Below, piece after piece: positions 4,677 to 40,526 of a stretch of DNA of 64,000 nt. The position numbers and the translations under genes are program-made. Source of the stretch: Chloranthus sessilifolius (Eukaryota > Streptophyta > Magnoliopsida > Chloranthales > Chloranthaceae). Position 1 is the first letter of the stretch. Every line of letters begins with the position of its first letter. The stretch covers positions 6,516,001-6,580,000 of the forward strand of contig CM037591.1 of NCBI GenBank assembly GCA_021018995.1, written 5' to 3'. The notes under the pieces were generated by a model. It saw only the letters and a program-made list of their open reading frames with translations, searched no databases and was not told the DNA's origin.

Positions 4677-4689
4677 TTCTCCCCACCTT
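4677..4689 (-). other. Polypurine tract of chromovirus A
   Basis: On the element strand the sequence AAGGTGGGGAGAA directly abuts the first TG of the 3' LTR. This is the usual place for the plus-strand primer, and it matches the tract of B at 22350-22362. Confidence 0.85.
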
Positions 4690-6628: not shown

Positions 6629-6975
6629 ATATTTATATGCCGAAATCGATTAATCGATTTTTATAATCAATTAATCAGTTTTAAAAATCTTCTCCAGCCG
6701 CGCGATATCAATTAATCGAATTTCAAAATTGATTAATCGATTTCCCAAAATCGATTAATCGAATTTCACCTCGATTAATCGAAATTATTATACCCTTAAA
6801 TTTTTTCAAAATTCTCAGCTCACTGGCGTGTGCTAGTCGAGTAATCGAATTCCCCTCAATTAATCGAAATTTTACTTTATTAATTTTCTGAATCTCCACT
6901 CACTAGTGTATGCCAATCGATAAGTCGACCTAAATCGATTAATAGAATTTCCAAATCGATTAATCGATTAATTGG
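6629..6975 (-). promoter_or_regulatory. Internal promoter of A's extra frame: palindrome array plus TATA box
   Basis: On the element strand about 10-12 copies of CGATTAATCG-type palindromes (6975 down to 6644) end 5 bp before a TATA box, CATATAAATAT (6639-6629). The ATG of the extra frame lies about 230 bp further on. The leader contains a donor-like CCTAAG|GTAAACC, as in B. The array, then TATA, then leader order is the same in B, C and D. Confidence 0.72.
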
Positions 6976-7251
6976 TTTTCATTAGAAGTTCAAAATTTTT
7001 CTTGTTTTTATGTCTCTTTTGTTTTCTTGGTAGTACATGACCAGTGGGTCATTGGTTTTGCGAAGCATGTCTTCATATTCATTGTGTGGTGTGATGAATC
7101 TTGACCATGCATTCTACATCGCATTATAGCACAATTTTTTTTTTTCTATTTAACATTCTCTCCATTGGATAAATTGGCCAAATGGTCAACACTGGATTAC
7201 AATAGATGGTTTACATCAACAAACATACTTGCGGTGATACAATTTTGACTC

Positions 7252-10200
7252 TTAACTCATCGCAAACAAGTCCGGATATTGTTCTTTCATGTCGGCCTCT
7301 TGTTCCCACGTAGCTTTTTCGACCGGATGATTTTTTCATCGAACAAGCACTAATGGAATTACCTTTGTGTGCAACACTTGTTCTTTTCAATCCAATATCT
7401 CCGCCGATTCTTCTATCATTTTCATATCCTCATATATCTCAAGAGGTTGTCCTCCCAAGATATGAGAAGGATCATTCACGTACTTTCTGAGCATAGATAC
7501 GTGGAAGATGTTGTGTACCCGATCGTATCGTGGCGGTAAGCCAACACAATACGTAACCTTTCCTATTCGACCCAAAACCTCAAAGGGTCAAAGATAACGG
7601 GGACTTAACTTCCCTCTCTTTCCGAATCTCATGACGCCCTTCATAGGCGACACCTTGACAAACACGTATTCACCCACCTTATAGTCTACACTGGTCCGCT
7701 TGATATCGGCGTAGCTTTTCTGTCTGCTCTGAGCCGCTTTGAGTTTTACCCTTATCATCCGAACATAGGCGGCATTATCTTTAAGCATTTCGGGTCCCAA
7801 AACAAATTTCTCACCGATTTCTTTCCAATTGATAGGCGATCTACATCGCCGTCCATAAAGAGCTTCATACGGTGCCATCCCAATGCTCGTCTGAAAACTG
7901 TTATTGTATGGGAACTCAATCAATGGCAGGTGCTGATCCCATGATCCTTGCAACTCTAGCATACACGCCCTAAGCATGTTCTCGATGGTCTGATTTACCT
8001 GCTCTGTTTGCCCATCAGTTTGCGGATGGAATGCTGAACTGAAATCCAATCGCGTTCCATTTCCTCTTGAAATTTATTTCAAAACTTTGATATATATAAT
8101 GGGTCACGGTCAGAAACAATGCTACTTGGGATCCCATGCAAACGGACGATCTCTTTCATATATAGCTCTGCGAGTCTTTCTGCTGTGTACATCGTGTTGT
8201 AGGGCAAGAAGTGTGTTGACTTAGTCAATCGATCTACGACTACCCAAATTGTGTTATATCTCTTCGCTGTACGCAGTAGTCTTACGATAAAGTCTATAGA
8301 GATCGATTCCCACTTCCACTCTGGTATGGGTAGAGACTGCAATAATCCAGCAGGATGTCTATGATCAACTTTCACCTGCTGACATATCAAATATCGTGAC
8401 ACGTACTCTGCCACATCTTGTTTCAACCCTCTCCACCAGTAATTCTTTTTCAAATCTTGATACATTTTTGTGCTACCAGGGTGGATTGCATAGTTTGACT
8501 TGTGAGATGCATCAAGGATGGTCTGCCGTAGATCGGCATTGTCCGAAATGCAGAGATGACCCTTGAATAATAAGGAACCATCTTTCACTAAGAAGTTCGG
8601 TTTGATGCCTTCAATTACATCTTGATGAATCTTGGTTAGCACCGGGTCTTTCATCTGTAGCTCGTGAATATGCTCAAATATCACTGGCCTCACTAAAATG
8701 TTTGCCAAAAAGGCTCATGTGGCTTGCGACTCGATGTTTCGCATCATATAGTGCCAGATATTCAAACAACTTCCATCTGTGCATACCCAAAATCAAATTA
8801 TCCAACTGAGCTGAACCCTTCAGACTCAAGGCATCTGCCATTATATTAGCCTTACCTGGATGGTACTGAATGGAACAGTCATAGTCCTTGAGGTACTCCA
8901 TCCATCTGCGTTGCCTCATATTTAGTTCCTTCTGTGTAAACAGATATCTGAGGCTCTTGTGGTCGGTAAAAATCTCAAAGGTCTCACCGTACAAGTAATA
9001 TCGCCAAATCTTCAGTGCAAATATGACCGCTGCTAGTTCTAGATCATGTGTCGGATAATTTTTCTCATGTTCTTTCAGCTGTCTCGACCCGTAAGCTATC
9101 ACCTTTTTGTGTTGGTTGAGCACGCAATCCAAACCATTATACGAAGCGTCACTGTAGACTGCGAACCCTCCATTGCCTGAAGGAATCGCTAGTATTGGAG
9201 CTGAAGTGAGTCTCTTCTTAAGTTCTTGAAAACTCTTCTCACATGTCTCACTCCATTCGAACCTTGCATCTTTCCATGTAAGTCTCGTGAGTGATCCCGA
9301 TATCTTTGAAAAACCCTCAACGAAACATTGATAATAGCCAGCTAGTCCGAGGAAACTACGGACGTCAGTCACGGTCTTTGGTTGCTCCTAATTGATCACT
9401 GCTTCTATCTTAGTCGGGTCAACTGTGACACCATGTTTTGAGATGACATGTCCCAAAAAGCTAACTTCCTCTAACCAAAACTCGCACTTGCTGAGCTTTG
9501 CGTACAGTTGGTGTTCATGTAAAGTTTGTAGAGCAATCCTCAAGTGTTCTTCGTGTTTCGCTTTTGACTTGGAGTATATTAGGATATCGTCGACGAACAC
9601 GATGACGCAGGAGTCTAGGTGGGGTTTAAACACCCGATTCATCAAGTCCATAAACGACGCTGGTGCGTTCGTCAACCCAAACGGCATCACTAAGAATTCA
9701 TAGTGTCTGTACCGTGTCCTGAATGCAGTCTTCTGGATGTCCTTTGCCTTGACTCTCAACTGATGGTATCCAGATCTCAGATTGATCTTGGAGAAATACC
9801 TTGCTCCTTGTAGCTGGTTGAATAAGTCATCTATTCTAGACAAAGGATACCTATTCTTTATAGTGAGTTTGTTTAATTGCCGATAGTCAATGCACAAACA
9901 TATTAACCCATCTTTCTTCTTTACAAACAAGACCAGTGCTCCCCATGGGGACACGCTCGGTCTAACAAACTCCTTATCTATGAGCTCTTGTAACTGCTCT
10001 TTCAACTCCTTCAACTTAGCAGGATCCATTCTGTATGGTGCTTTAGACACAGGCTCCGTTCCTGATGCTAAGTCGATGGCGAACTCAACTTCTCTATCTG
10101 GAGGTAATCCGGGTAATTCTTCTAGAAACACGTCAGCGAAGTCTCGCACAACTGTTATCTCTGAAATAATATTCTTCTCTTCCTTATCCTCCTTCAAGAA

Positions 10201-10664
10201 TGCCAAGTATCCACTACACCCTTTTCTGATCAAGCGTTCAACCCTGACTGCAGAGATAAGTGGCATACACATCGATCTCTCTCCTCGAAATCGAAACGAT
10301 CTCCTGGTGTTAGGTCTGAAGATGACAACTTTATTCTTACAATTCACAGTTGCACAATGAGTCGACAATCAATCCATGCCAAGGATCACGTCGAATCCTT
10401 GCATGTTTAATATGATCAAATTTGCCGGTAGTTCAAAGATGTCTCCATCCATGATTCTCACGATCACAGAGTTGCAAACCTTTTCGGTATCAACCGACTT
10501 CCCAGTCGGAACAGTCAAAGTTAACACAAAGTCTAACTCCTCTGGGTTGACTTTCATCTTCTTTGTGAAGCGAGGGATAATAAATGAGTGGGTAGACCCC
10601 GGGTCTATCAACACTCGAGCTTCATATGTCACATCGCTTCCTTTCTCATAGATTTGTAACGTAC
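7252..10664 (-). pseudogene. pol: pol region of chromovirus A
   Basis: Domains in order on the minus strand: aspartic protease (about 10630-10370; [15 protein letters not shown]), reverse transcriptase (about 10100-9400; [27 protein letters not shown]), RNase H (about 9200-8800; [11 protein letters not shown]), integrase with an HHCC-type zinc region (about 8520-8400), catalytic core (about 8330-7870; FHPQTDGQTE) and a GPY/F module. A short C-terminal chromodomain follows (about 7400-7252). YNNSFQTSIGMAPYEALYGR is typical of the plant Tekay/Del chromovirus clade. Such enzymes copy element RNA and insert the DNA, with the chromodomain steering integration towards marked chromatin. Broken by several lesions. 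Confidence 0.9.
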
Positions 10665-10676
10665 CTAGTCATAAAT

Positions 10677-10713
<37 letters not shown>

Positions 10714-10832
10714 ATATATACCATCATACCAAAATTTTACATATAGGTTCTTTTCTATTTTCTATATGGATGCACCTTCTCTATCTAAAATTTTTTAAGA
10801 ATTGAAGTTCTTTATTTAAAAGAGATTCTCAC
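10665..10832 (-). other. Intron-like segment between gag and protease (A)
   Basis: A 168-bp AT-rich stretch on the element strand, starting AAG|GTGAG (donor-like) and ending CTAG|GTAC (acceptor-like). The same boundaries occur in B and D. It contains an (AC)n(TA)n microsatellite at 10677-10720. A spliced intron between gag and the enzyme part is known in Ogre elements; its use here is inferred. Confidence 0.5.
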
Positions 10833-11880
10833 CTTGGATCACGTCGTTTGTATTCTGAGCCTCTTGAGCTGTGTTCGCATAGGCTCTCCCTTGGACGATC
10901 GGCTTCCTTGCTTGTATCGGTCGTGACATAGCAACTGAAGTCGTCTTCCCTTTGTTTACCTCAGGATAATCTTTGATCAAGTGGCCCACCTTGCCACATT
11001 TGAAATAGCTCCGAGTTCTCTACCTACAGTCCGCCGTCTTGTGAGACTTGCCACACTTGGCACAAGTCTCCCGTGGTGTGGAAGATGCAGCTCGTGAGAA
11101 ACCCTGTGTAACTGTAGCTCCGGTAGTGATAGTAGGGCTCTCATATCGTATCGGCCTCTCCGACGTGAGCAATGGAAATCTCTACTGGTTGGCGTGTTGT
11201 GCCGGTCTTTGATACCCTCCTTGGAATGGTGGTCTCTGATTGTGGGCTATAAATCTCGGCTTTTTGTTCACCGGCTCGTAGTTTCCCGTTCTACTCTGAT
11301 CCACACTCCTCCTTCCTTGCTGTTCCCTCTGACGATAGCGATTATTATTTTCTTCTTCAATCACTAATGCCTTGCTCATAACCTCTCCATAGGTCCTCAT
11401 TTGAAATGGTGCTACTCCTCCCCTCACGTCCGGTCTCAACCCTTGCTGAAACCTCTTTGCTCTCATCATATCCGTGATAACATAGTCGGGCGCGAAGCGA
11501 GCAAGTCGCATGAATTCCATTCCATACTTTCTAACAGTCATCTTTCCTTACACGAGTTGCAAAAATTGTATTTCCATTTGATTCCTCACCACTTCTGGAA
11601 AATACTGTTTGTTGAACTCTTCAACAAATTCATCCCACGTCCAGGGAAAATCTGGGGTCTCCTGAGCCCTAGTCCGTAAAATTGACTTCCACCAAGGCCC
11701 AGCCTCCCCATCTAACATGTAGGCTGCCCAACAGACGCTCTCGTCCTCAGTGCATGTGAGGACACTAAACACTTTCTCCATTTCATTAAGCTAGTTCTCA
11801 GCTGTCCTGGGCTCTGCCTGCCCCGAAAAGCTAGGAGGTCTCATCCTTCTAAACTCAGTAAACGTAGAAGACACTGTCGG
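10833..11880 (-). pseudogene. gag: gag of chromovirus A, C-terminal part
   Basis: Encodes the retrotransposon gag core (EKVFSVLTCTEDES, GEAGPWW, EEFNKQYFPEVVRNQMEIQF) and then a zinc-knuckle region at about 11085-10950. The gag protein forms the particle that packages element RNA. The region stops at 11880, where B is inserted, and the N-terminal part resumes at 24884-25239. The target repeat of B is GTCGG (11876-11880) against GGCGG (24884-24888), one mismatch. Broken. Confidence 0.88.
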
Positions 11881-12459
11881 TGTAATATCCTAAAAAATTA
11901 CGTTAAACAGTGACCTCGGGATCCATGCCCGACTAGTCATAGGTTTGACCAAATAGGAGTTCAATAGTTGGCATAGGGTGCAATGAACGGATGAGATGTG
12001 AGAAATCAAGTGAATATGTGAAGGGTGATGTAAATCTGAAGTCACATACACCTATTACGGTGCATGTGCTCAACACACAAACTAGAGGGGAGATAAAAGG
12101 ATTTAATAACCCTAAAATAGATGTTTTGGTTGTTGAGAGAGAAGTAAAGAAGAGAGAGAGAGGAGTAAAGAAGGTGGTTAAGCAAGGAGTTTTTGTGGGT
12201 GATTGGAAGGGGGATTCAAGCACTTAAGAGGCCGATTCAACGCGAAGGATCCGTTCAAGCCAAAGCTGGAACCCTAGCCTTTCCAACCACTTGATTAATC
12301 AATTTGAGATTGATTAAAGGTAAGATTTTTGTGAAGTAGATGTATAAGCTATGGGAGCTTAAATGTAGTTAGGAATGGTCTAAATGATAGATTAAATGCT
12401 TAGAAGATTATTGGAAAAATATTGAGAAGAACAACCCAAGAGGGGGCTGAATCTGGCCA

Positions 12460-12935
12460 TTTCGATTAATCGAAAGTGGGATTTGACTAATCGATTTTTG
12501 CCAAGAAGTTGAAAAGTCAGAGGACCCCAATTTCGATTAATCGAATTGAGTTTCGATTAATCGACTTTGATTTTTGATTAATCGATTTTAGTATCGATTA
12601 ATCGACTAGGAACCTCTAGTGAACTCCAGTGGAGGGGAGAAAAAAGGACTTGGAGAAATCGACTAATCGAAATGGGATACGATTAATCGATTTAGAAATT
12701 TGATTAATCAATTTGGGATCGATTAATCGATTTTGGAAATTCGATTACTCGAGTTGAGAATCGAATGGATAGAGTGGAGAATTTCGATTAATCGAATTGG
12801 GATTCGATTAATCGAATGGGAATATCGATTAATCGATTTGAGAATCGATTAATCGATTTTGAATTTCAATTAATCGATTTTGGAAATCGTCAAATCAGAT
12901 TCGATTAATCGACTTTGGAGTTCGATTAATCGACT
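12460..12935 (+). promoter_or_regulatory. CGATTAATCG palindrome array in B 5' LTR
   Basis: About 18 copies of CGATTAATCG and near variants (CGACTAATCG, TGATTAATCG) lie in about 475 bp, roughly 580 bp from the LTR start. Similar density is seen in the 3' LTR (22941-23421). Full-length copies reach the 14-bp perfect palindrome ATCGATTAATCGAT. A regulatory role is inferred. Confidence 0.72.
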
Positions 12936-13960
12936 GTGCCAATTTTTGTTGACTTTTGAGTTTGACTTTAAGATTCTTAGAGGGTCTTGGAACTTCCTTA
13001 TTACATCTTTAGTGATGTATTGCATATGTTATGTGGTACCATAGGTGGTACATGTGATCAAGAGCACAAGGAGCCACGCGGAACCTTGATGCGTGATTTA
13101 GCAGAGACTTGAGGTAGGGAACACTTTTAACATGTACTTTATTTTGCAAGAGCATGCATGTAGTGATATAGAATTCAATTCAAACTATTTTTTTTATTGC
13201 TTAAGAGTTTGTGAAAAGTGTGTGTGTGTGACATCTATAAGAGTAATCATAATGAGCCATCCCCAGGGGAGGAGGAAGTAAAGAAATAAGAGCATCAGGT
13301 GTGATGCAAGTACACGGATACATCTCAGGGATGTATCCAAGATTGAATTATGTCTGATAAGGCCTAACTGATATAAGATACCACACTTACACAATGAATA
13401 AATATATGTAAAGCACATGATATTTTTGTTATTTGAGGTTTGATAGGATACCCCACCGACGTGGCGGGATACCTGACCGGCTGACAGGGATATCCGTGAC
13501 CGTCTGGTGTGGCTTGTAGGCCAATGCGGAGGCTTATCTGTACACAGTAAGCACACCCCAGGGGTGTTGAATTGAGATATGTTGAAACCCCGCCACCAAT
13601 CCCCAGGGGAAAGGGGCTTGGGTACTATTGTATTCCCAGGGAATACATTTAAAACTGTTATATAGATGATGATGAAGGGTATCTCATCGGGGCTCGATGC
13701 TATATTGCTCGGGGATTACTTAAGTTGAAAGGTTAAGTTTTGTTTTAGGCCTTCTCAGTGTCATTCATGAATAATTAAAAGACATGAGTAAACTACCAGA
13801 AAAATATGATTCTTTTCAACTATTTTTTTTTCAATAACTGCATAGACACATCATGCATGGCATTTCATTGAATATATGTGAGTTGTAATTTATATGTTCA
13901 ATTGTGTTTTGTTCCCTATTAAGCTAGGATGTAGCTCACCCTTTAGACTATACGTCGCAG

Positions 13961-14063
13961 GTCCACTATTGGCTGCTGCCGAGGCTTCAGGGGACATTGA
14001 CCCTGGTGAGTCAGACCCGACACCTGGAGACCAGTTGGAGCCACCTCCTGAGGACTTCTTTAG
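13961..14063 (+). other. Conserved acidic-peptide segment in B 5' LTR
   Basis: Follows an acceptor-like TACGTCGCAG. Reads GPLLAAAEASGD, then an acidic Pro-rich stretch, and LEPPPEDFF. The same peptide frame is found at 24430-24532, 25709-25812 (minus), 37668-37771 (minus), 53167-53270 and 63597-63700. In A, D and E the segment is exactly 104 bp with a stop right after Phe-Phe. It may be a terminal exon or small ORF; its product is unknown. Confidence 0.5.
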
Positions 14064-14415
14064 AGGACTCCGTTGTGCAGCTTTGAGAGTTTTTGTGAGA
14101 TTATTAGTGCGGCTTGGTATGTCAAGCCTGGTTTTTGGTTAAACAATGTAAATATAAGTTTGAGATTATTCTTTTGGGCGAACCATCTGTGATGATTTGC
14201 TATCATCGATGGTTCGGATCGGTTCTCCATTCATGCAGGGGCATGAAGGTAAAACTGTCTTTTGAATGATATCCTATTTCCGCAATTATAGTTATTATTT
14301 TAGTTCATTATTGTTGCTTGATATACCAATGTTCCGTGCATAGCTAAGGGGCACGGTCAAGATGATCGTGCTGATGGCATGGGTTTCGGGGTGCTGATAT
14401 CCGAACTGTCACAGT

Positions 14416-14428
14416 TGGTATCAAAGCC
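14416..14428 (+). other. Primer binding site of chromovirus B
   Basis: TGGTATCAAAGCC lies two bases after the 5' LTR. It resembles the complement of the plant initiator methionine tRNA 3' end (usual form TGGTATCAGAGC) with one difference. The same variant occurs in A and D. Confidence 0.85.
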
Positions 14429-14502
14429 TTTCTTTTAGCAATTCTAATATCATTCTTTTTGTCAGAACATATGGACTTCTGCTAACGAAACTTTAGTTTC
14501 AA

Positions 14503-15856
14503 ATGCAGCCGTCAATGTCATCTAGAGGAAGGGGCCGACCGAGGGGAGGCCAACAGAGAAGTTTGCGTAGTGGAGATGATTACATCTCTCCTACCAATCG
14601 AGTACCTTTAGGAAGCAGTGAGGCCCCAGGGGGCAGCAGTAGTAGACAACAGGAGGATGAGGATCGAGATCAAAGAGAACAGGAGAGAGTTAGAGAAAGA
14701 CAAGAGGATAGAGAGGAGCGACAAAGGATGATGCATACCATGGAGACCATGGCAGCTGCCATGGCACAACAAGCCGCATCCTTTGCAGCTTATGCAGCGA
14801 GAGAACAACAGCCACCTGTAGGACCCGCACCGCCTGTGCCTTCATCCTTCACGGAGTTTAGGAGGATGAGACCTCCTTCATTTTCTGGGCAGGCAGACAC
14901 GATGGCAGCAGAAAATTGGTTGATGGAAATGGAGAAAGTTTTTAGCGTGCTGACATGCACGGAGGACGAGTGTGTAAGATGGGCAGCCTACATGCTAGAC
15001 GGCGAAGCTGGGCCTTGGTGGAAGTTCGTGATACGGAATAGGGCCCAGGAGACCCCAGAATTGCCGTGGACTTGGGAGGAGTTCAACAAACAGTATTTTC
15101 TGAAAGTTGTGAGAAATCAATTGGAAATTCAATTTCTACAATTGGTGCAAGGGAGGATGACTGTGAGGGAATATGGAGTGGAGTTTCTACGACTTGCCCG
15201 TTTTGCTCCGGATTACGTCGCTATCGACGTGATGAAGTCAAAGAGGTTTCAGCAGGGCTTGAAGCCTGAAGTTAGGGGAGGAGTAGCTCCATTTCAATTG
15301 AGGACCTATGAAGAGGTCATGAGCAAGGCACTGGTTGTAGAGGAGAATAATAACAGATACCGGCAGAGAGAGCAACAAAGAGGAAGCAATGATCAAGGAA
15401 GAACGGGGAGCTACGAACCGGTGAATAAAAAGCCGAGGTTCGTGGCCCAAAATCAGAGACCACAGTTCCAAGGGGGTTTTGGAAGACCGGCGCAGTAGCA
15501 CCACCAATAGAGATTTCCACTACTTACGTCGGGGTGACCTTCACGCTATGAGAGCCCTGCATTGTCTACTGGCGCTACCGTCACACAGGGTTCTCGTACA
15601 GTTTCTTCCGCGCCTCGAGAGACTTGTGCCAAGTGTGACAAGCCTCACAGGACCGTGGATTACATAGTGGGAACTAGAGGTTGTTTTCGATGTGGCAAGG
15701 TGGGCCACTTGATCAAGGATTGCCCCGAGGTTGATAAGGGGAAGACGGCTTCAGTTGAAGCGCCACGACCCATTCAAGCACGAAAGCCGGTCGTTAATGG
15801 AAGAGCCTATGCAGTCACTGCTCAGGAAGCAGGGAACGTGCATGACGTCATCCAAG
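14503..15856 (+). pseudogene. gag: gag region of chromovirus B
   Basis: Starts with the arginine/glycine-rich MSSRGRGRPRGG, an N-terminus shared with A and D. A glutamine/arginine/glutamate-rich helix follows (about 14650-14800). The gag core (about 14850-15330) contains FSGQADTMAAENWLMEMEKV, GEAGPWW and RFQQGLKPEVRGGVAPFQ. Zinc-knuckle cysteines lie at about 15625-15725 (CFRCGKVGHLIKDC). Expected to form the virus-like particle and bind element RNA. Broken by a small number of lesions. It is separated from protease by an intron-like segment, not by a stop and new start. Confidence 0.9.
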
Positions 15857-16019
15857 GTGAGATCTCTTTTAAATAAAGAAATTCAACTTTCATGGAAATT
15901 TTAGATAGAGAAGGTGCATTCATTAGGAATAGTGTAGTTTTTCTAAACACTGTATTTGTATGTGAATTAGGGGCATAAATTGATATGTAAATTATTGTGT
16001 GTATGTATGTATACTATAG
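15857..16019 (+). other. Intron-like segment between gag and protease (B)
   Basis: 163 bp, AT-rich, starting AAG|GTGAG and ending ACTATAG|GTACG. The boundary words match those in A and D, while the interior differs. This suggests a real intron, as known for Ogre elements, rather than random decay. Confidence 0.5.
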
Positions 16020-19000
16020 GTACGCTAACTGTATATGAGAAAGGATGCTTCGTTGGATATGACGCTAGAGTGTTGATAGACCCAGGGTCTACCCACTCAT
16101 TCGTCACTCCACGATTTGCCAAGAGGATGAAGATTATTCTAGAGGCGTTGGATTTTGTCCTATCTGTGTCTATTCCGACTGGAGAGTTAGTGGACACAGA
16201 GCTAGCTTGCAAATCCGTCATAGTAGCAATTCGAGACCTGGAGGTGCATGAGTTGGAGGCAAAATTGATACTGCTGGACATGCAAGGGTTTGATGTGATC
16301 CTTGGCATGGACTGGTTGGCACAACATTTTGCAACAGTCGATTGCAAGAATAAGGTTGTCATCTTCAGACCCAACACAAGAAGATCATTTCGATTTCAAG
16401 GAGTGAGGTCATCATGTATGCCACTAATCTCAGCAGTAAGGGCCGAGCGGATGATCAAGAAGGGTTGCAGTGGGTACTTGGCTTTCTTAAAGGAGGACAA
16501 GGAAGAAAAGAATGTCATCTCTGAGATAGCAGTTGTGCGAGACTTCACCGACGTCTTTCCAGAAGAGTTGCCTGGATTACCTCCAGAGAGAGAAGTAGAA
16601 TTTGCCATTGACTTAGAACCGGGAACAGAACCTGTTTCAAAAGCATCATATAGAATGGCTCCTGCTGAGTTGAAGGAGTTGAAAGAGCAACTACAAGAGC
16701 TCATGGATAAGGGGTTTGTCAGACCGAGCGTGTCTCCGTGGGGAGCACCGGTCTTGTTTGTTAAGAAGAAAGATGGGTCAATGCGTCTGTGCATTGACTA
16801 TCGACAACTGAACAAACTCACTGTCAAGAACTGTTACCCTTTGCCTAGAATCGACGATCTGTTTGATCAACTGCAAGGAGCGAGGTACTTTTCCAAGATC
16901 GACCTGAGATCTGGATACCATCAGTTGAGAGTCAAGGCAGAGGACATCCAGAAGACAGCTTTCAGGACACGGTATGGACACTATGAATTCCTTGTAATGT
17001 CATTCGGGTTGACGAATGCTGCAGCGTCGTTTATGGATCTGATGAATCTAGTGTTTAAACCACACTTGGACTCCTGCGTAGTAGTATTCATTGATGATAT
17101 TTTGATATACTCCAAATCTAAGACAGAACACGAAGAACATTTGAGGATTGCTCTACAGACGCTACATGAACACCAATTGTACGCCAAACTCAATAAATGT
17201 GAATTTTGGTTGGAGGAGGTTAGATTTTTGGGACATGTTGTCTCAAAGTACGGTGTCACTGTAGATCCAGCAAAGATAGAAGCAGTGGTTAAATGGGAGC
17301 AACCAAAGACAGTGACCGATGTCCGAAGTTTTCTTGGGTTAGCAGGCTACTATCGATGTTTCGTCGAGGGGTTTTCAAAGATTTCGGGACCTCTCACGAA
17401 GCTGACACGAAAGGATTCAAGATTCGAGTGGAGTGAGGCATGCGAGAAGAGTTTTCAAGAACTCAAGACGAGACTCACTTCAGCTCCAGTGCTAGCGATT
17501 CCTTCAGACAGTGGAGGATACGTGGTGTACACGATGCGTCATACAATGGTTTGGGTTGCGTGCTCAACCAACACAAGAAGGTGATAGCTTACGGATCAAG
17601 ACAGCTGAAAGAACACGAGAAAAATTACCCGACTCATGACTTGGAGCTAGCAGCAGTCATTTTCGCACTGAAGATTTGGAGACACTACTTGTATGGTGAG
17701 ACGTTTGAAATTTTCACCGATCATAAGAGCCTCCGATACTTATTTACACAGAAAGAGCTAAACATGAGACAGCGCAGATGGATGGAGTTCCTCAAGGATT
17801 ATGATTGTTCTATACAGTACCATCCAGGTAAGGCTAACGTGGTAGCCAATGCTTTGAGTCGAAAGAGTTCAGCTCAGTTAGCTTGTTTGATTTTGGATAT
17901 GCACCGGTGGAAATTATTGGAAGATCTGGCACTTTATGATGCAAATATTGAGTCGAAAGCTACAGGATCCTTTTTGGCTAACATATCAGTGAGACCAGTA
18001 ATATTTGAGCATATCCACGAGTTATAGATAAAGGATCCGATGTTAACAAAGATTCATCAAGATGTGATTGAAGGCATCAGGCCGGACTTCTCAGTGAAAG
18101 GAGATGGTTCTTTATTGTTCAAGGGCCGTCTTTGCATTTCGGACAATGCCGAGCTAAGACGAACGATTCTTGATGAAGCCCACAAGTCAAATTATGCTAT
18201 CCACCCTGGTAGCACCAAAATGTACCAAGACTTGAAAAAGAACTATTGGTGGAGAGGTTTGAAACAAGACGTGGCCGAATACGTGTCACGGTGTTTGACC
18301 TGTCAGCAGGTAAAGATTGACCATAGGCATCCTGCTGGACTATTACAACCTTTACTAATACCCGAATGGAAGTGGGAATCGATCTCGATGGATTTCATTA
18401 TAGGATTACCGCGTACTGCCAAGAAATACAATGCCATTTGGGTAGTGGTCGATCGATTGACCAAGTCAGCGCACTTCTTGCCTTACGACACGATGCACAC
18501 GGCGGAAAGACTGGCACAGCTATATATGAAGGAGATTGTCCGTTTGCATGGGATTCCGAGTAGCATTGTTTCGGACTGTGACCCATTGTACACATCAAAG
18601 TTCTGGAAGAAATTTCAAGAAGGAATGGGAACACGACTGGATTTCAGTACGACATTCCATCCACAAACTGACGGACAGACTGAGAGGGTCAATCAGATTA
18701 TCGAGGACATGCTTAGGGCATGTATGTTAGAGCTACAAGGATCATGGGATCAGCACCTACCTTTGATTGAGTTTGCATATAACAACAGTTTTCAGACGAG
18801 CATTGGGATGGCACCATGTGAAGCACTCTACGGACGGCGATGTAGATCGCCCATTAATTGGGAAGAAACGGGTGAGAAGTTTATTTTGGGACCTGAATTA
18901 CTTGAAGATAATGCCGCCTATGTTCGTATGATAAGGGCAAAACTTAAAACGGCACAAAGCAGACAGAAAAGCTACGCCGATATCAAGCGGACGAGCGTAG

Positions 19001-19434
19001 ACTACAAGGTGGGTGAACACGTGTTTGTGAAAGTGTCACCTATGAAAGGGGTGATGACATTTGGAAAGAGAGGGAAGCTAAGTCCCCGCTACCTTGGACC
19101 ATTTGAGGTTTTGGGACGAGTAGGGGAAGTTGCTTACCATATTGGATTGCCACCATTGTTCGATTCAGTGCACAATGTCTTCCACGTATCAATGCTTAGG
19201 AAGTACATTAACGACCCTGACCACGTGTTGAGCGGTCAAGAGTTAGAGAGGCATGAGGACATGACCATGATCGAAGAACCCGTGGAGATTTTGGATCGAA
19301 AGAAACAAGTACTACGAACAAAAGTGATTCCACTCGTACTTGTCAGATGGAACCATCATACGGCCGAAGAAGCTACGTGGGAACGGGAAGCCGATGTGAA
19401 GGAACAGTATCCGAGCTTGTTTGCGACGACTTGA
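16020..19434 (+). pseudogene. pol: pol region of chromovirus B
   Basis: Protease (about 16060-16320; [22 protein letters not shown]), reverse transcriptase (about 16690-17240; [37 protein letters not shown]), RNase H (about 17500-17870), integrase zinc region (about 18180-18330; HPGSTKMYQDL, CLTCQQVKIDH), catalytic core (about 18380-18850; FHPQTDGQTERVNQ) and GPY/F module (about 19090-19190). The C-terminal chromodomain (about 19300-19430) includes VIPLVLVRW and EEATWERE. It is the best-preserved pol of the window, with a low number of breaks. The chromodomain places the element among chromoviruses. Confidence 0.93.
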
Positions 19435-19609
19435 GAGTCAACATTGTAACACCGCAAGCTTGTTCGAGGATTCTCATCGTCCATGTAATTCAATGATGAC
19501 CAGTTGGTCAATATATTCAATGGAAAAAAAAAATTTCGAAACAAATTGGAGATGAATATCACCATGGAAATAAAGAACGAAAAGAAACAACTGGGTTTGA
19601 GAAGTCAGG

Positions 19610-20315
19610 TAAAACCGATTAATCGATTTTCAAATCGATTAATCGATTTGAGGATTCGATTAATCGAGTTTTGGTCGACTAATCGACTGACATCGGCTAG
19701 TGAGGAAGAACTTAGGAAAATGAAAATTTAGAAAATTTTGATTAATCAAGGGGATTCGATTAATCGATTTGGTAACTCGATTAATCGATAGTGGAATTCG
19801 ATTAATCGACTGGCAGAAGCCAGTGGGCCTAATATTGAAGAAATTAAGTTATGTTTAAATTCGACTAATCGATCTAGCTTTCGATTAATTGAATTTGGAA
19901 TTCGATTAATCGAATAACTTAAGAGATTTTAGATGAAAAATTTGAATTATAAGCAATTTCGACTAATCGAACTGGAAAATTCGACTAATTGATTCATTTA
20001 AGAAATTGGGAAAAATTTGAAGGACCATGCGATTTCGATTAATCGAAGTAAAATTCGATTAATCGATTTTAAAATCTCGATTAATCTAAAACGGATTTTG
20101 ATTAATCGACTGGCCAATGCCAGTGAGCCAAAATTTTGAAAATTTAAACGGCTACGATTTCGATAAATCGAAATGGATTTCGATTAATCGAGTATGTATT
20201 TCGATTAATCGATTTTGGGAATCGATTAATCGATTTCGAACGCCTTAGCTAGTTTTGCAACTCGATTAATCGACTTTGAGAAATCGATTAATCGAACCAG
20301 GGCCTATATATATAT
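19610..20315 (+). promoter_or_regulatory. Internal promoter of B's extra frame: palindrome array plus TATA box
   Basis: About two dozen CGATTAATCG-type palindromes lie between 19615 and 20294, often 20-21 bp apart. Ten bp after the last comes a TATA box, CTATATATATAT (20304-20315). The leader (20316-20531) holds a donor-like CCTAAG|GTAAACC at about 20460 and then the ATG at 20532. Hairpins of the form CTGGC-n-GCCAGTG recur in the array (about 19806, 20107). Nothing here codes for protein. Confidence 0.75.
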
Positions 20316-20531
20316 GTGAGTTGGGGTTTTTGGTGCCATTCGAAAATTTTGCAAGTGGGCGCCATTTTCTTCTTCTTCTCCAACCTACCGAGAGATCTAG
20401 GGCTTGGATTTCCGTCGATTTTGCATCCGCAATTGCACACATTCGCATCCGAAACCTAAGGTAAACCCTAGATTGTCGTTTCTTTCCATTCTAAACAATT
20501 AAACCCTAGTTTTTCTTGAAATTTTATCAAG

Positions 20532-22072
20532 ATGCCACCGAAAACCCGTTTGTCTTCAAGGAAGGCAACCAGCAAGCTACCTGTCCGGCGTAAGAATGCC
20601 GCACCGCCACTACCGACCCCATCATCTGTGAGGACTTTGTCATCATCGGCATCGGACACCACGTCCGGGTCGACGAGCGCGGCTTCGCGCGAGTCTTCAC
20701 GCGAATCTACCCCAATGCCACCACCACCTGCCAATGTGGTTCAACCTAATGAATGGTGGGCGGCTAAAACCATTGGGTTCGATTTCATTATCGACCCAAC
20801 TCTATTTACAGACCCTAATGTGCAGGGCGAGACCAATTGGGCTCGTAAGTACCTTGAAAATGTCGGACTCGGCAATCTTTTGAAACCGACCCGTGGGTCC
20901 TATTACCCTCGGTTGGTTCAACTGTTTTACCAGGGCCTTACAGATGGCCCTACCGACGACGTGGTCTTGACCAAAATAGAGGGTCGAGACTACACCAGCA
21001 CGCGTCGTCACATCCATGAAGCACTTGAGTGCTATTTGGATTTTGAACCTGAGACCACCCTATTTCCACCATTTCCAGAGGAGGTGGATGTCGAGGAGAT
21101 CATCTGCGACATGACCAAGGGGAAGAGGGGTTCGGGCACCTCAATCTGGAGGGTAGACTTGCCTCCGTATATGTGGATGCTCGACTCCATTATCAAATGC
21201 AATCTATACCCTATGCGCCACGACACTGAGCGCGTGGAGTTGATTCAATAAGCACTATTCGCGGCTTACAAGGGCCGTTGGTTCGATGCCACCATGATCA
21301 TCCTCGGGGGGATGAGGTACATGAAGGGCAACCTCAGGCCCAAGGAGAAGATGCCTTACGCTTGGCTCATCTCGAGCATTTTGGAGAGCTATTATGACGC
21401 TCCCGCCTATACCATATCGCCCCACGAGGTGCGGGCGACGTACCGGATTAAACGATTTTCACACTCCTCGTGGAACCGGAGTTACAACCTTCTGAAGAAG
21501 GCCTTACCAACAACGGGCGCAGCTGTACCACCACCACCACAGCTAGACCTGCCCGCCGGCAGAGCACCACGAGAGGAGGCTCCACCTGTTATCCCACCCC
21601 CTGCCACAGCAGCTACACCACCACCTCGATCCACCCCGGCGACGTCGACGTCATCCCGTCGCCGACCGCAGCTCCTTCTGGCCCTACTATAGAGGATGTG
21701 TTGGCACGCATGGAGGCCAACAACCAGCGGATGAACCGGAGGATGGACTTCCTTATGTTCCATACGCTCCACTACATCTACCCGTCCGACTACCAGTGGT
21801 ACTTAGCTCAGGAGGAGGAGTGGACCGCAGGACGGACCGCCTTCCATAGGGGTCCCGTCTTTCGTCCGATCGCAGCGGCTACCGACGCTGGTACTTCCAC
21901 TTCAGCACCAGTTCCTCCGATCGAGACGCCACTGCCACCACCGTCGACTACGACCAGCCATCCACCCCCTGTGTAGCCAGTTCTCGCTGACACACCAGCC
22001 CCCATAGCTCCGCCAGCTCAGATGGAGCAGCCTGCTCCACCACCCGACCTGCCTGACGAGGGGACGACATGA
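20532..22072 (+). pseudogene. Extra sense reading frame of B, 3' of pol
   Basis: The start MPPKTRLSSRKATSKLPVRR is nearly identical to D's (59786) and close to A's. The basic Ser/Pro-rich N-terminus (about 70 residues) leads to a conserved domain (about residues 70-310) with NEWWAAK, YYPRLVQLFYQGLTDGPTDD, YMWMLDSIIKCNLYPMRHD, GRWFDAT and MPYAWLISSILE. A Pro/Thr-rich linker and a helical segment follow (MEANNQRMNRRMDFLMFH), then a proline-rich tail. No membrane span or enzyme motif is seen, so it is not an envelope or protease. It lies in the same place and strand as in A, C and D, so it is a stable part of the family. Few breaks. Function unknown. Confidence 0.78.
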
Positions 22073-22349
22073 GCCTCATGCTCTCATCTTCTTTTTGAGT
22101 AGTTTCCTTGTATGTATGAGTGTTTGTATGCCAACCTATCTGGCAATTTATAAAAAAATTTCAGACACTTAATAGAAATCACAAATTTTGGTGTAAATTT
22201 TCCAGTATCGTTGCATTTTCTATTCTATACTTGTATTTTTTGTAATTGCCTTGCTATGTCTGGAGTCAATTGGGCCACCTCACCTGAGAGTGTGGGGGGG
22301 GGACCTAGACCTACGCACCATTGGGTTATTTTCGAAGACGAAAATTCCC

Positions 22350-22362
22350 AAGGTGGGGAGGA
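22350..22362 (+). other. Polypurine tract of chromovirus B
   Basis: AAGGTGGGGAGGA directly precedes the 3' LTR start TGTAATATCC. The stretch 22073-22349 between the extra frame and this tract holds no recognisable gene. Confidence 0.88.
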
Positions 22363-24883
22363 TGTAATATCCCAAACAATCACGTTTAAACAGTGACCTC
22401 GGGATCCGTGCCCGACTAGTCATAGGTTTGACTAAATAGGAGTTCAATAGTTGGCATAGGGTGCAATGAACGGATGAGATGTGAGAAATCAAGTGAATAT
22501 GTGAAGGGTGATGTAAATCTGAAGTCACATACACCTATTACGGTGCATGTGCTCAACACACAAACTAGAGGGGAGATAAAAGGGTTTAATAACCCTAAAA
22601 TAGGTGTTTTGGTTGTTGAGAGAGAAGTAAAGAAGAGAGAGAGGAGTAAAGAAGGTGGTTAAGCAAGGAATTATTGTGGGTGATTGGAAGGGGGATTCAA
22701 GCACTTAAGGGCTGATTCAACGCGAAGGATCCGTTCAAGCCAAAGCTGGAACCCTAGCCTTTCCAACCACTTGATTAATCAATTTGAGATTGATTAAAGG
22801 TAAGATTTTTGTGAAGTAGATGTATAAGCTATGGGAGCTTAAATGTAGTTAGGAATGGTCTAAATGATAGATTAAATGCTTAGAAGATTATTGGAAAAAG
22901 ATTGAGAAGAACAACCCAAGAGGGGGCTGAATCTGGCCATTTCGATTAATCGAAAGTGGGATTCGATTAATCGATTTTTGCCAAGAAGTTGAAAAGTCAG
23001 AGGACCCCGATTTCGATTAATCGAATTGAGTTTCGATTAATCGACTTTGATTTTCGATTAATCGATTTTGGTATCGATTAATCGACTGGGAACCTCCAGT
23101 GAACTCCAGTGGAGGGGAGAAAAAAGGACTTGGAGAAATCGACTAATCGAAATGGGGTTCGATTAATCGATTTAGAATTTTGATTAATCGATTTGGGATC
23201 GATTAATCGATTTTGGGAATTTGATTACTCGAGTTGAGAATCGAATGGATAGAGTGGAGAATTTCGATTAATCAAATTGGGATTCGATTAATCGAATGGG
23301 AATCTCGATTAATCGATTTGAGAATCGATTAATCGATTTTAAATTTTGATTAATCGATTTTGGAAATCGATTAATCGAATCAGATTCGATTAATCGACTT
23401 TGGAGTTCGATTAATCGACTGTGCCAATTTTTATTGACTTTTGAGTTTGACTTTAAGATTCTTAGAGGGTCTTCGAACTTCCTTATTACATCTTTAGTGA
23501 TGTATTGCATATGTTATGTGGTACCATATGTGGTACGTGTGATCAAGAGCACAAGGAGCCACGTGGAACCTTGATGCGTGATTTAGCAGAGACTTGAGGT
23601 AGGGAACACCTTGAACATGTACTTTATTTTGCAAGAGCATGTATGTAGTGATATAGAATTCAATTCAAACTGTTTTTTTTATTGCTTAAGAGTTTATGAA
23701 AAGTGTGTGTGTGTGACATCTATAAGAGTAATCATAATGAGCCATCCCCAGGGGAGGAGGAAGTAAAGAAATAAGAGCATCAGGTGTGATGCAAGTACAC
23801 GGATACATCCCAGGGATGTATCCAAGATTGAATTATGTCTGATAAGGCCTAACTGGTATAAGATACCACACTTACACGGTGAATAACTATATGTAAAACA
23901 CCTGATATTTTTATTATTTGAGGTTTGATAGGATACCCAGGATACGGACGCCGGATATCCGTGATCGATACGGCGGCGAAACCGTAGGCCAGTGCGGAGG
24001 CTTATCCGTACACAGTAAGCACACCCCAGGGGTGTTGAATTGAGATATGTTGAAACCCCGCCACCAATCCCCAGGGGAAAGGGGCTTGGGTACTATTGTA
24101 TTCCCAGGGAATACATTTAAAACTGTCTATATAGATGACGATGAAGGGTATCTCATCGGGGCTCGATGCTATATTGCTCGGGGATTACTTAAGTTGAAAG
24201 GTTAAATTTTGCTTTAGGCCTTCTCAGTGTCATTCATGAATAATTAAAAGACATGAGTAAACTACCAGAAAAATTTGATTCTTTTCAACTATTTTTTTTT
24301 TAATAACTGCATAGACACATCATGCATGACATATCATGGAATATATGTGAGTTATAATTTATATGTTCAATTGTGTTCTGTTCCCTATTGAGCTAGGATG
24401 TAGCTCACCCTTTAGACTATACGTCGCAGGTCCACTATTGGCTGCTGCCGAGGCTTCAGGGGACGTTGACCCTGGTGAGTCAGACTCGGCACCTGGAGAC
24501 GAGTTGGAGCCACCTCCTGAGGACTTCTTCTTGAGGACTCCGTTGTGCAGCTTCGAGAGTTTTTATAAGATTATTAGTGCGGCTTGGTATGTCAAGCCTG
24601 GTTTTTGGTTAAACAATGTAAATATAAGTTTGGAATTATTCTTTTGGGCGAACCATCTGTGATGATTAGCTATCATCGATGGTTCGGATCGGTTCTCCGT
24701 TCATGTAGGGGCATGAAGGTAGAACTGTCTTTTGAATGATATCCTATTTCCGTAATTATAGTTATTATTTCAGTTCATTATTGTTGCTTGATATATCAAT
24801 GTTCCGTGCATAGCTAAGGGGCACGATCAAGATGATCATGCTGATGGCACAGGTTTTGGGGTGCCGAAATCCGGGCTGTCACA
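22363..24883 (+). repeat. 3' LTR of chromovirus B
   Basis: 2521 bp, from TGTAATATCC to GGGCTGTCACA. It is collinear with the 5' LTR and carries the same palindrome array (22941-23421) and acidic-peptide segment (24430-24532). After it, GGCGG (24884-24888) is the target repeat and gag of A resumes. Confidence 0.94.
22941..23421 (+). promoter_or_regulatory. CGATTAATCG palindrome array in B 3' LTR
   Basis: About 19 palindrome copies. Several positions that are variant in the 5' LTR array read as the exact palindrome here (for example at about 22965), so the ancestral array was probably close to uniform. Confidence 0.7.
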
Positions 24884-25239
24884 GGCGGTGTCGGAGCCAC
24901 TGGAGGTGTAGGTGACTGATGCTGCTCGTGGGCAGTATGAGCTGCCAAGGATGCTGCCTGTTGTGCCATGGCAGTCGCCATGGTTTCCATAGTGTGCATC
25001 ATCCTTTGACGCTCCTCTCTGTCTTCATTTCTTTCTCTGACTCTCTCCTATTCCCTCTGATCTCGATTCTAACAATTTCAATCCTGATTCTCTGCCTAAT
25101 CTTGGCTCTCTTGGCCACCATTGCCTGAAGCCCCTCCATCTCCAAAAGGCACTCGATTGATATCCGAGATAAAATCATCTCGACTACGCAAACTTCTTCT
25201 ATGGCCGCCCCTGGGTCGGCCCCTTCCTCTAGAAGACAT
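24884..25239 (-). pseudogene. gag: gag of chromovirus A, N-terminal part
   Basis: On the minus strand the start at 25239 reads MSSRGRGRPRGGHRRSLRSR, matching gag of B and D. A charged helical stretch and MMHTMETMATAMAQQAASLA follow. It runs to the insertion point of B at 24884; the rest is at 10833-11880. Broken. Confidence 0.85.
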
Positions 25240-25325
25240 AACGGCTGCATGTGAAACTAAAGTTTTGTTAGCAGAAGTCCCTATGTTCTGACAAAACAAG
25301 AGTTGTCAGACTTTCTAAATGAAAA

Positions 25326-25338
25326 TGCTTTGATACCA
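25326..25338 (-). other. Primer binding site of chromovirus A
   Basis: TGGTATCAAAGCA on the element strand, two bases after the 5' LTR. It is the initiator-Met-tRNA type, as in B and D. Confidence 0.85.
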
Positions 25339-25708
25339 ACTGTGACAGCCCGGATCTTGGTACCCCAAAACTTGTGCCATCAGCACGATCCTCCAGACCG
25401 TGCCACATAGATCTGTGCCGAATATTGGCATAGCAAGCAATAATTTAAACAAGATAAGACAAATAACTGTACGATACGGAAATAAATATACTAAACTAGG
25501 TGTAAACTCAAAAGACAGTTCTGCTTTCATGCCGACGCATGAACAGAGAACCGATCCGAACCATCAGTGATAAACAGATCACCTCAGATGGTTCGCCAAA
25601 AGAATTATATCATATAAGTACATGTTTCTCAAAATAAAGACTTGACATACCAAGCCGCACAAAATATACTCTCAAAACTCTCCCTATCAAAGTACACAGC
25701 GAAGTCTC

Positions 25709-25812
25709 CTAGAAGAAGTCCTCGAGAGGAGGATCTAACTCGTCTCCGGGCACGTAATCTATATCCCCCGGATTAGCATCTCCCGAAGCCTCTACGGCTG
25801 CAAGCAAAGGAC
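25709..25812 (-). other. Conserved acidic-peptide segment in A 5' LTR
   Basis: 104 bp after an acceptor-like TACGTCGCAG on the minus strand. Reads GPLLAAVEASGD, then an acidic stretch, and LEDFF followed by a stop. It has the same length and frame as in D and E. Confidence 0.5.
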
Positions 25813-26875
25813 CTGCGACGTATAGTCTAAAGGGTGAGCTACATCCTAACTCAATAGAGAACAACACAATGAACATATAAGTCAAATCCTCACATATATT
25901 CCATGATATTCTTAGCATGATGTATTTATGAACTTTTTGGGAAATAGTTTAAATAATTACAATATGCATTGAAGTTTACATGTTACATTTATTATCATCT
26001 GTTCATGAATCACACTGAATAGGCCTAAAGAAACTTAAATCTTCAACTTAAGTAATCCCCGGGCAATAGAGCATCGAGCCCCGATGGAATACCCTCAATC
26101 TTCGTCTAAATAGACAGTTGTTATGAATATATCACTTTAAACACTACCCAGGTCCCTTTCTCAAAGGCGACGGGGTCTAATCTCATCTCAACATCCTTGG
26201 GATGTGCTACTGTGTACGGATAGACCGCCGTATCGATGTACGGATTGGCCGTCGTACCGGTCACGGATATTCTGCCGAGTCAGTCGTGAGTATCCCGCCA
26301 CGTCGGTGGGATATTCTGTTCAAACCTTAAATAACAAAAATATCATGCGCTTTAATTACATATAGTTATTCATCGTATAAATATGCTACTTTATATTAAT
26401 TAGGCCTTATCAGTCTTTGTTCAATCTTACTTTACAATCTCATTTACATCTCTGGGATGTTTAAATCACTCGCATCACACTGATGCCTTTATCACTTTCT
26501 CATCCCTTGGGGATGTCTTATTTTCATATGCTTACTTGGTGTCAACACACATACTGAGAGGATTATATGATTAAAGCATTTTCATTTTATTGGTGTATCA
26601 CACACACACACCCATGGAGATTATATGATTAATTTCATTTCTATATCACTACATACATGCTCTTGTAATCAAAGTACATGTTCAAGGTGTTCCCTACCTC
26701 AAGTGTCTGACTGTCCAAGCGTCAAGGTCCCACACGGCTCCTCATATTTGCTTTAGCTCGTACCACCTATGGTACATTATAACATATGCACAGTATCAAT
26801 AAGGATGCAATAGAGAAGGTCCAAGACCCTCCATGAACCTCAATGTTAAACTAAGAAGTCAACTCAAACTGCCAA

Positions 26876-27273
26876 AATCGATTAATCGATCTCCAAAATC
26901 GATTAATCGAAACCCCAAATCGATTAATTGATTCCCAAATCGATTAATCGAAATCTAAAATCAATTAATCGATCCCAAATCGATTAATCGAAAGTCCACA
27001 ATTGATTAATCAATCCCAAATTGATTAATCGAAAGTCCACAATCGATTAATCGATTCCCAAATCGATTAATCGGTTTCCCCAGGTCTTATTTCTCTAGCT
27101 ACTGGAGGTACTTAGTCGATTAGTCAATTTCTAAATCGATTAATCGAATTTAAAATTCGATTAATCGATTTCAAGATCGATTAATTGAACTCAAGCCTTT
27201 TTGCTTTTTCAACTTCCGAACTAAAATCGATTAATCGATTCTCCAAATCGATTGATCGATTTGGCCAGAACTC
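26876..27273 (-). promoter_or_regulatory. CGATTAATCG palindrome array in A 5' LTR
   Basis: About 17 palindrome copies and near variants, many at 20-21 bp spacing (for example 26925-27070). Matches the array of the 3' LTR at 3730-4078. Confidence 0.7.
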
Positions 27274-27864
27274 AGCCCCTTTTCGGGTTGTTCTTCCAAA
27301 TCTTTTTCTTCTTATTTTCTATCTTTTTTCCATCATTTTAATTCATCATTTACTCCATCTATTGATTGAATTTAATCATCAAAACTCATGCATTTAAATC
27401 TATCAAAACTCACCTCAAATCAATCTCTTAAAGAATGGATTGGTTGGTTTAATGGCTAGGGTTCCAGCTCTTGCTTCAACGGTCCTTCATGCGTCAAATC
27501 CGGCATTCAATGCTCAAACCCTTCCTCAAATCCGAACCACAATAACTCTCCTTTCCATTAACTTCCCTTTTCTCTCTCTCTCTCTCTCTCTCCTCTTAAC
27601 TTCTCTCACCAACCCAAACAAGAGAATAACTTCTTTAAGGTATTAAAAACCCTTATAACCCTCTTGCTTTTGTGTTGAGCACATACACCAGAGATAGGTG
27701 TACATGCCCTTAACTAACCTCTAACTCCATGCGCAGGTCACATTTACATCACAAAACACTGCTCTTCTCAAGTCTACTGTTTGACCATCACTTGGTCAAT
27801 CTACGACCAATCGGGCACAAATCCTGAGGTCACTGCTCGTCGCTCAACTTTCGGGGATATTACA

Positions 27865-40505: not shown

Positions 40506-40525
40506 TCCACACACACAAACACACA

Positions 40526-40526
40526 T

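Follow-up and report, generated by a model that had tools for sequence, protein, structure and literature searches.

Constrained palindrome arrays in the LTRs and upstream of an extra gene of chromovirus-like elements in Chloranthus sessilifolius suggest a possible element-encoded regulator

In the chromovirus-like retrotransposons described here, rows of short palindromes occupy the LTRs and the linker between pol and an extra 3' open reading frame (ORF), and the linker rows end at a nearly fixed distance from an internal TATA box. The window, that is, the whole stretch of 64,000 nucleotides of Chloranthus sessilifolius (contig CM037591.1) that was analyzed, contains several such copies. One of them, copy C, combines another palindromic word with an extra protein very unlike the others, a pairing suggesting that the extra protein may read these words and switch the element on. 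Our main reading, to which we give a probability of roughly 0.48, is that an element-encoded, probably dimeric DNA-binding factor acts on both arrays, either as an activator or as an anti-silencer.

The window comprises a solo LTR, here called E, and four chromovirus-like copies that are related to one another and have LTRs of ~2.4-2.6 kb (Table 1). In copy B, the Pfam domains Ty3_capsid, Retrotrans_gag, RVP_2, RVT_1 and Integrase_H2C2 scored above their cut-offs, and the integrase lies downstream of RT, which is the Ty3/gypsy order and assigns the element to that group. The rve match remained sub-threshold (27.4 versus a cut-off of 32.6), as did a Chromo match at residues 415-459 of the integrase ORF (E 0.00029, 21.1 bits versus a cut-off of 25.1), the position of which is the fitting one. 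The solo LTR is a more distant relative, with ~70-72% identity to the A, B and D LTRs over 37581-38349. The extra ORF lies in sense orientation between pol and the 3' LTR; it is open over 323 aa in A and contains stops in B, C and D. The stops of B (21249-21251) and D (60491-60493) fall at the same alignment position, where A is open. Elsewhere in the window, a unit of ~0.7-1.3 kb is repeated several times at 43178-46621, just before the truncated copy C, with a further copy at 34906-36498 (82-91% identical), and a near-perfect inverted repeat (86 bases, 97.7% over the whole) lies at 40525-40610.

Table 1. Coordinates of the elements, extra ORFs, palindrome arrays and internal TATA boxes in the window.
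Feature	Position	Strand	Details
Copy A	2302..27864	-	LTRs 2302-4676 and 25341-27864; flanking duplication CGTAC; copy B inserted inside
Copy B	11881..24883	+	LTRs 11881-14413 and 22363-24883; sits within copy A
Copy C	46677..51070	+	5' side missing; homology to other copies begins in RT near 46677; split by copy D
Copy D	51071..64000	+	5' LTR 51071-53637; 3' LTR from 61558 runs off the window; interrupts copy C
Solo LTR E	37309..39352	-	5-bp flanking duplication GACAG
Extra ORF, copy A	5428..6399	-	323 aa, open
Extra ORF, copy B	20532..21251	+	239 aa, then in-frame stop; weak sub-cut-off PF20167 match
Extra gene region, copy C	50002..51061	+	stop-broken; longest open piece 50393-51061, 222 aa
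Extra ORF, copy D	59786..60493	+	first open piece 235 aa; further open piece 60536-61195
A linker array, TCGATTAATCGA	6646..6975	.	4 exact; 9 at <=1, 11 at <=2 mismatches
B linker array, TCGATTAATCGA	19615..20295	.	13 exact, 23 at <=2 mismatches; short spacings 18-22 bp and longer gaps
C linker array, TCGCTCGAGCGA	49653..49787	.	2 exact, 6 at <=2 mismatches; spacing 21-22, one gap 36
D linker array, TCGATTAATCGA	58872..59539	.	13 exact; 23 at <=2 mismatches
A 3' LTR array	3735..4075	.	8 exact TCGATTAATCGA
A 5' LTR array	26878..27259	.	8 exact TCGATTAATCGA
B 5' LTR array	12462..12933	.	11 exact TCGATTAATCGA
B 3' LTR array	22942..23418	.	14 exact TCGATTAATCGA
D 5' LTR array	51657..52101	.	8 exact TCGATTAATCGA
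D 3' LTR array	62147..62542	.	8 exact TCGATTAATCGA; LTR cut by window end
E array, TCGCTCGAGCGA-type	38756..38914	.	7 at <=2 mismatches, 5 at one, none exact
Internal TATA, copy A	6632..6637	-	8 bp past last site
Internal TATA, copy B	20305..20314	+	9 bp past last site, 227 bp before ORF start
Internal TATA, copy C	49796..49803	+	8 bp past last site
Internal TATA, copy D	59548..59553	+	8 bp past last site

The palindrome TCGATTAATCGA occurs 87 times in exact form in the window, against 0.02 +/- 0.14 expected from 100 shuffles, and all 87 sites are confined to nine regions: in each of A, B and D, these are the two LTRs and the linker between pol and the extra ORF. Outside these regions, the window holds no exact and no one-mismatch site and three matches at two mismatches. 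For the sites at <=2 mismatches in the copy B linker (19435-20531), the expectation was 0.65 compared with the 23 found, 13 of them exact. The linker of copy C has no TCGATTAATCGA-type site and carries another palindrome, TCGCTCGAGCGA, at six sites (two exact). The latter word was also found, without exact copies, at seven sites of E; beyond the C linker and E, it is absent from the window at <=2 mismatches, and no region contains both words. The C-type word thus also exists as an LTR array, as E shows, with E possibly belonging to the family of C, E being a solo LTR and the LTR of C itself lying outside the window. An array both in the LTR and upstream of the 3' ORF was therefore seen in A, B and D, while C (linker only) and E (LTR only) are each incomplete. 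The initial annotation had described a dense palindrome array at 19610..20531, which proved stronger than stated, and had placed the same palindromes in the linkers and LTRs of every chromovirus copy. An array is indeed present in 4/4 copies that retain a linker, E being a solo LTR without one, and the identity of linker and LTR words holds for A, B and D (87/87 TCGATTAATCGA sites) and fails for the C linker with its TCGCTCGAGCGA.

A half-site common to both words (outer TCG..CGA) was considered as a sign of homologous binders and rejected for its weakness, since the outer T or A is missing from several sites of C and E. In the literature full text, as far as the sources were available, the TCGATTAATCGA string matched one Vibrio paper only, and the matches for the TCGATTAATCGA and TCGCTCGAGCGA strings looked unrelated among the matches listed; they may be hairpin cloning oligonucleotides. 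A search of viral_contigs with the array pattern found no related locus.

At insertion, an element has two identical LTRs, and any differences between them are consequently post-insertion changes. Within LTR pairs (three elements summed), 25/552 site positions and 33/658 spacer positions differ (Fisher p 0.79). Between elements, the LTR sites are 90.5-95.3% identical, against 61.9-70.1% for the spacers and 72.1-78.2% for the LTR outside the array (site versus spacer, p 1e-7 to 7e-13), and the B-D linkers show 88.5-89.8% in sites, 65.6-65.8% in spacers and 66.5% in the remaining linker, the site values being possibly inflated somewhat by an aligner that may pair repeat with repeat. A per-site check on the LTR comparisons limits this effect, as the sites that are gapless and have <=1 mismatch in the partner amount to 15/16 for D-B (16 sites), 15/18 for B-D (19), 14/16 for B-A (19) and 13/14 for D-A (16). 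Furthermore, in the four comparisons in which the site mask was slid by up to 10 bp, identity fell steadily. The LTR site differences are transitions with one exception per comparison; unlike these, the B-D linker site differences include 8/25 and 10/29 transversions in the two directions. Since the contrast between sites and spacers exists between elements and not between the LTRs of one element, these results indicate that the sites were constrained while the elements were active and decayed neutrally after insertion. They support the arrays as constrained cis-elements.

The geometry of the arrays is also regular. Short spacings average 20.5 bp, i.e., two helical turns (n=77; measured in three linkers and in one LTR per element of A, B and D). 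Helical phase is maintained across the 24 longer gaps (R 0.50, p 0.004 at 10.5 bp versus uniform gaps), with p 0.018, 0.006 and 0.002 at 10.0, 10.3 and 11 bp, so that the period is not sharply fixed, and with p 0.03-0.14 for the 15 linker gaps alone; all of these values are uncorrected for the four periods tried and optimistic, because the array gaps are partly shared by descent. The C-type word is spaced by 21-23 bp, with one 36-bp gap in each of C and E. Information reaches 1.3-2.0 bits per position in the 12-bp core, against 0.14-0.9 in most spacer positions, and the two positions directly after the core reach 1.3-1.5 bits in the LTRs. A second inverted repeat lies in the array gaps, as CTGGC-N4-GCCAG in three linkers (19810 and 20110 in B, 58964 in D, 6823 in A), where it immediately follows a site in B and D, and as CTCCAG..CTGGAG in 5/6 A, B and D LTRs (23094, 51809, 62291, 3930 and 27093). 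At <=1 mismatch, it has 13 matches, nine in linkers or LTRs and four elsewhere (42793, 51020, 53849 and 54311).

One rule, the first TATAWA after the last palindrome site, was applied to all copies. The gap from the last site to the TATA box is 8, 9, 8 and 8 bp in A, B, C and D, respectively, and is thus constant under either word. The fraction of linker positions with a TATAWA within 11 bp is 0.025, the four boxes counted in; therefore, a box at 8-9 bp in 4/4 copies is far from chance. From the box to the ATG of the extra ORF, the distances are 238, 227, 206 and 238 bp. The initial annotation had array-to-TATA gaps of 5, 10, 8 and 7-8 bp, which differ from ours only because the starts of site and TATA were defined differently, and had put the extra reading frame about 190-230 bp past the TATA box. 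Soon after the box, candidate splice donors can be read in the sequence as AAG/GTAAACC (A and B), ACG/GTAAACC (D) and AAG/GTGAAAT (C). The internal TATA box and its array are the likely promoter of the extra gene.

The LTRs are arranged differently. The six LTRs of A, B and D have a TATA-like box 207-213 bp into their sequence, and E has one at ~135 bp; the main array begins at ~580-606 bp in A, B and D and at ~440 in E, ~300-400 bp downstream of the box. Consequently, the proposal of one site type at two promoters is valid for the sharing of sites between LTR and linker and not for their position. In copy B, the LTR additionally shows a single variant site near 410 and, near 461-463, a further TATAAG; in copy D, a TATATA occurs within the array. 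Both A LTRs, both B LTRs and the 3' LTR of D, though not its 5' LTR, have a donor-like GT near 434-450; in E, one lies near 295. An acceptor-like TGCAG is present just before gag in A, B and D, with donor and acceptor of copy B near 12320 and 14508. These sites suggest a putative intron that would begin in the LTR leader, span the primer-binding site and end shortly ahead of gag; if they were used, the LTR array would lie inside this leader intron.

The extra protein was compared with the integrase by tblastn. Relative to B, integrase identity is 78-85% in A, 81% in C and 87-89% in D, and the C integrase is 79-85% identical to those of A, B and D. For the extra protein, identity to B is 62% in A (58% in the reverse direction), 38-39% in C and 79% in D, and that of C is 32-34% identical to A and 36% to D. 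Other alignments gave 30% and, over 166 codons, 31% for C-A and 44-45% for C-B and C-D over 75 codons; overall, the C protein is ~30-45% identical to the others, depending on method and stretch. Between B and D, the extra ORF has a dN of 0.125 and a dS of 1.26 (dN/dS ~0.10; integrase ratio 0.097), which indicates purifying selection on the extra ORF between these two copies, the remaining pairs being saturated at synonymous sites. Integrase dS is ~1.9 for B-C, 0.93 for B-A and 0.62 for B-D, and C is accordingly the deeper lineage at the synonymous sites of the integrase; time combined with fast evolution could thus account for the divergence of its extra gene in any case. Module exchange by recombination in C was rejected as an explanation of the divergent extra gene; it is not needed, because C is also deeper at synonymous integrase sites.

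Annotation of the extra protein gave weak matches. PF20167 (Transposase_32) scored 25.3 bits in B, 24.3 in D and 19.6 in A, below the curated cut-off of 45, so that these proteins are not assigned to the family, and the Pfam scan found no such match in the C piece or the second D piece. DUF1985 and DUF287 had no match in the five extra-ORF pieces (Pfam scan, E 0.001). No homologue of the extra protein was found at E 0.001 or 0.01 in a protein database of unstated plant content, no relative at up to E 10 in a PDB sequence search, and no locus related to the A protein in viral_contigs; the Pfam scan and the protein and PDB searches detected no DNA-binding domain. AlphaFold2 on an alignment of the four window proteins gave an unusable fold (mean pLDDT 37.0, pTM 0.25).

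If an element-encoded factor is at work, the arrays would be rows of putative binding sites on one face of the helix, for a protein probably acting as a dimer. The linker row would serve as the proximal promoter of the extra gene, and the LTR row, downstream of the TATA-like box, could be an enhancer or keep the LTR unsilenced. The binder would most likely be the product of the extra gene itself, and a little of this protein might then open the promoter of its gene as well as the LTRs of every relative that shares the word, as a self-reinforcing switch. A joint change of word and protein could free lineages from one another, as may have happened between A, B and D on one side and C on the other, with E carrying the C-type word. 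Here, we infer the binding, the dimer, the identity of the binder and the activation or anti-silencing. A word that differs together with a divergent extra protein in C is what an element-encoded factor would predict, an association that is weak with two word types (n=2). The self-regulating circuit proposed initially is thus supported in part, by the constrained shared arrays, the TATA spacing in 4/4 copies and the joint difference of word and protein; an action of the LTR array on the LTR promoter is its weaker part, as this array lies downstream of the TATA-like box. More tentatively, at less than even odds, the extra gene may encode a sequence-specific DNA-binding regulator or anti-silencer that recognizes the palindrome of its own element both at the internal promoter and in the LTR and whose word changes with the protein, providing related retrotransposons with private, mutually insulated switches.

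The closest precedent, which the initial annotation did not name, is the repeated motif (RM) of Sireviruses. Sirevirus (Ty1/copia) identity is ruled out for the present elements by their Ty3-type gag and the integrase after RT, the likeness being in layout only. According to the available parts of the source, the Sirevirus RM consists of family-specific palindromes with dyad symmetry, at 8-32 per element, which also occur in the linker in 9/9 RM elements with ENV, 77/79 linker copies being upstream of ENV (Bousios et al. 2010, PMC2829016). The shared features are family-specific palindromes in the LTR and in the linker upstream of a 3' ORF, CpG richness and diverged flanks; the differences are that Sireviruses have 12/13 motifs with a CGG-CCG core (same parts of PMC2829016), whereas the elements studied here are chromovirus-like Ty3/gypsy elements with another core. 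In Sirevirus LTRs the TATA box follows the array, as described there; in A, B and D, no LTR TATA box shortly after the array was found, and the TATA-like box precedes it. Those parts of PMC2829016 leave the binder open and report no conclusively identified internal promoter, in contrast to the TATA box 8-9 bp past the linker array in 4/4 copies here.

The functional analogy with VANDAL transposons and their VANC proteins, drawn in the initial annotation, is apt, with tandem motifs and a protein diverging faster than the transposase, and the Sirevirus RM is closer still. VANDAL elements are DNA transposons. In the accessible text of the two sources, VANC proteins work via tandem motifs, which differ from one related family to the next (PMC5735166, PMC10398659), and co-evolve with them, the transposase being much more conserved (PMC5735166). 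Non-coding tandem motif arrays, motifs differing by family and a fast-diverging accessory protein are thus common to both systems; in VANDAL, binding and demethylation have been demonstrated, whereas they would be predictions for our candidate factor, and VANC carries DUF1985 and DUF287, compared with only a weak PF20167 match here (PMC5735166, PMC10398659, in the same portions). The VANDAL motif YAGTATTAY is not a palindrome, and palindromes are not mentioned in the accessible text of PMC5735166, whereas the words described here are palindromes. Similarly, the foamy virus factor Tas, as described in the part of the source available, is a single element-encoded factor needed at an internal promoter and at the LTR, a layout like the present one, in which the factor is putative. 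The foamy virus internal promoter drives Tas's own gene. Foamy viruses are animal retroviruses, and we claim no homology with them. To our knowledge, Grande is not a chromovirus. Its gene23 is likewise an additional gene located between pol and the 3' LTR; it has a promoter of its own, its product is nuclear, and it is antisense, unlike the extra ORF here, and the available sections of PMC7264820 describe no palindrome array in Grande. PF20167 has been seen in the extra ORF of sunflower Athila (PMC11728184, in the section available), a family that the extra ORFs of A, B and D match only at the sub-cut-off scores given above.

The strongest rival to an element-encoded factor is a dimeric host plant factor that binds the palindromes and drives the LTR as well as the extra gene, with the extra protein serving another purpose (particle or nuclear import, for instance); we regard this as a real, if somewhat doubtful, possibility. 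It explains most of the cis data equally well, as confinement, constraint, TATA spacing and helical phase fit any DNA-binding factor. In the available parts of PMC2829016, LTR cis-elements are often stress-related host-factor sites that may be tandem, and Sirevirus motifs in PLACE gave mainly stress-factor sites. In addition, of the 13 Sirevirus RM elements, the four without ENV show no palindromes in the linker and still keep those of the LTR, a pattern compatible with a host factor or with help in trans (same parts of PMC2829016). On the other hand, a host factor needs a factor change made alike in the LTR and the linker of the C/E type and leaves the word differing together with a far more divergent extra protein unexplained, both objections being weak at n=2.

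It is less likely that the arrays are an RNA or silencing feature, in which self-complementary words fold the transcript (packaging, dimerization) or act as sources of small RNAs, and we consider this improbable. Compared with 40 shuffles per array, each of the eight arrays folded was more stable (z -3.2 to -7.6, against -2.2 and -1.2 in two control stretches), although fold stability is a trivial consequence of palindromes. The CpG observed/expected ratio is 1.85-2.72 in six arrays (the A, B, C and D linkers and one LTR each of B and D), compared with 0.69-0.78 in two other parts of copy B, which resembles the CpG islands that Sirevirus motifs form, and small RNAs are in excess on clustered maize Sirevirus palindromes, as given in the accessible text of PMC10760457. 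However, a structural role needs no single exact word, and the fixed 8-9 bp to the internal TATA box and the helical phasing would be unexplained.

A shared word without a common factor would also follow if LTR and linker arrays were copied into each other, e.g., through template switches of the reverse transcriptase, and the two kinds of array share the inverted-repeat style in their gaps (three linkers and 5/6 LTRs). We judge such copying very improbable: the copy B linker and LTR are 65-83% identical over ~60-400 bases, carried by the cores, among the matches listed, and the gap patterns of LTR and linker arrays differ. A neutral minisatellite, with slippage or gene conversion of a 21-bp unit and an array position that is historical, is the least credible explanation, since the tandem layout, the spacing near 21 bp and the tandem repeats that Retand and other plant retrotransposons often have between pol and the 3' LTR (PMC11963269, in the portion available) suit it, whereas slippage copies whole units, yet here the spacers differ while the 12-bp cores stay, the spacers change faster than the cores between elements, and the array gaps partly shared among the A, B and D LTRs imply that the arrays are old.

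What appears to be new here is the Sirevirus layout in a chromovirus-like element, accompanied by the fixed gap between array and TATA box, by the contrast in constraint between sites and spacers and by a word that differs along with the protein; no published description of a chromovirus with this array arrangement was found in the available text of the literature searched. The role of extra ORFs in plant LTR retrotransposons is an open question in the parts of the literature available (PMC7264820, PMC6317226). With a gene, its likely promoter, a rigid selected array and a natural change of word at hand, the function of an extra ORF becomes directly testable. If the A protein binds the word of A and not that of C, LTR retrotransposons would have private switches like those of VANC. 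Were an element-encoded regulator confirmed, the family-specific palindromes that precede 'ENV' in Sireviruses would find the same explanation, and many 'env-like' or additional ORFs of plant elements would be private regulators and not envelopes.
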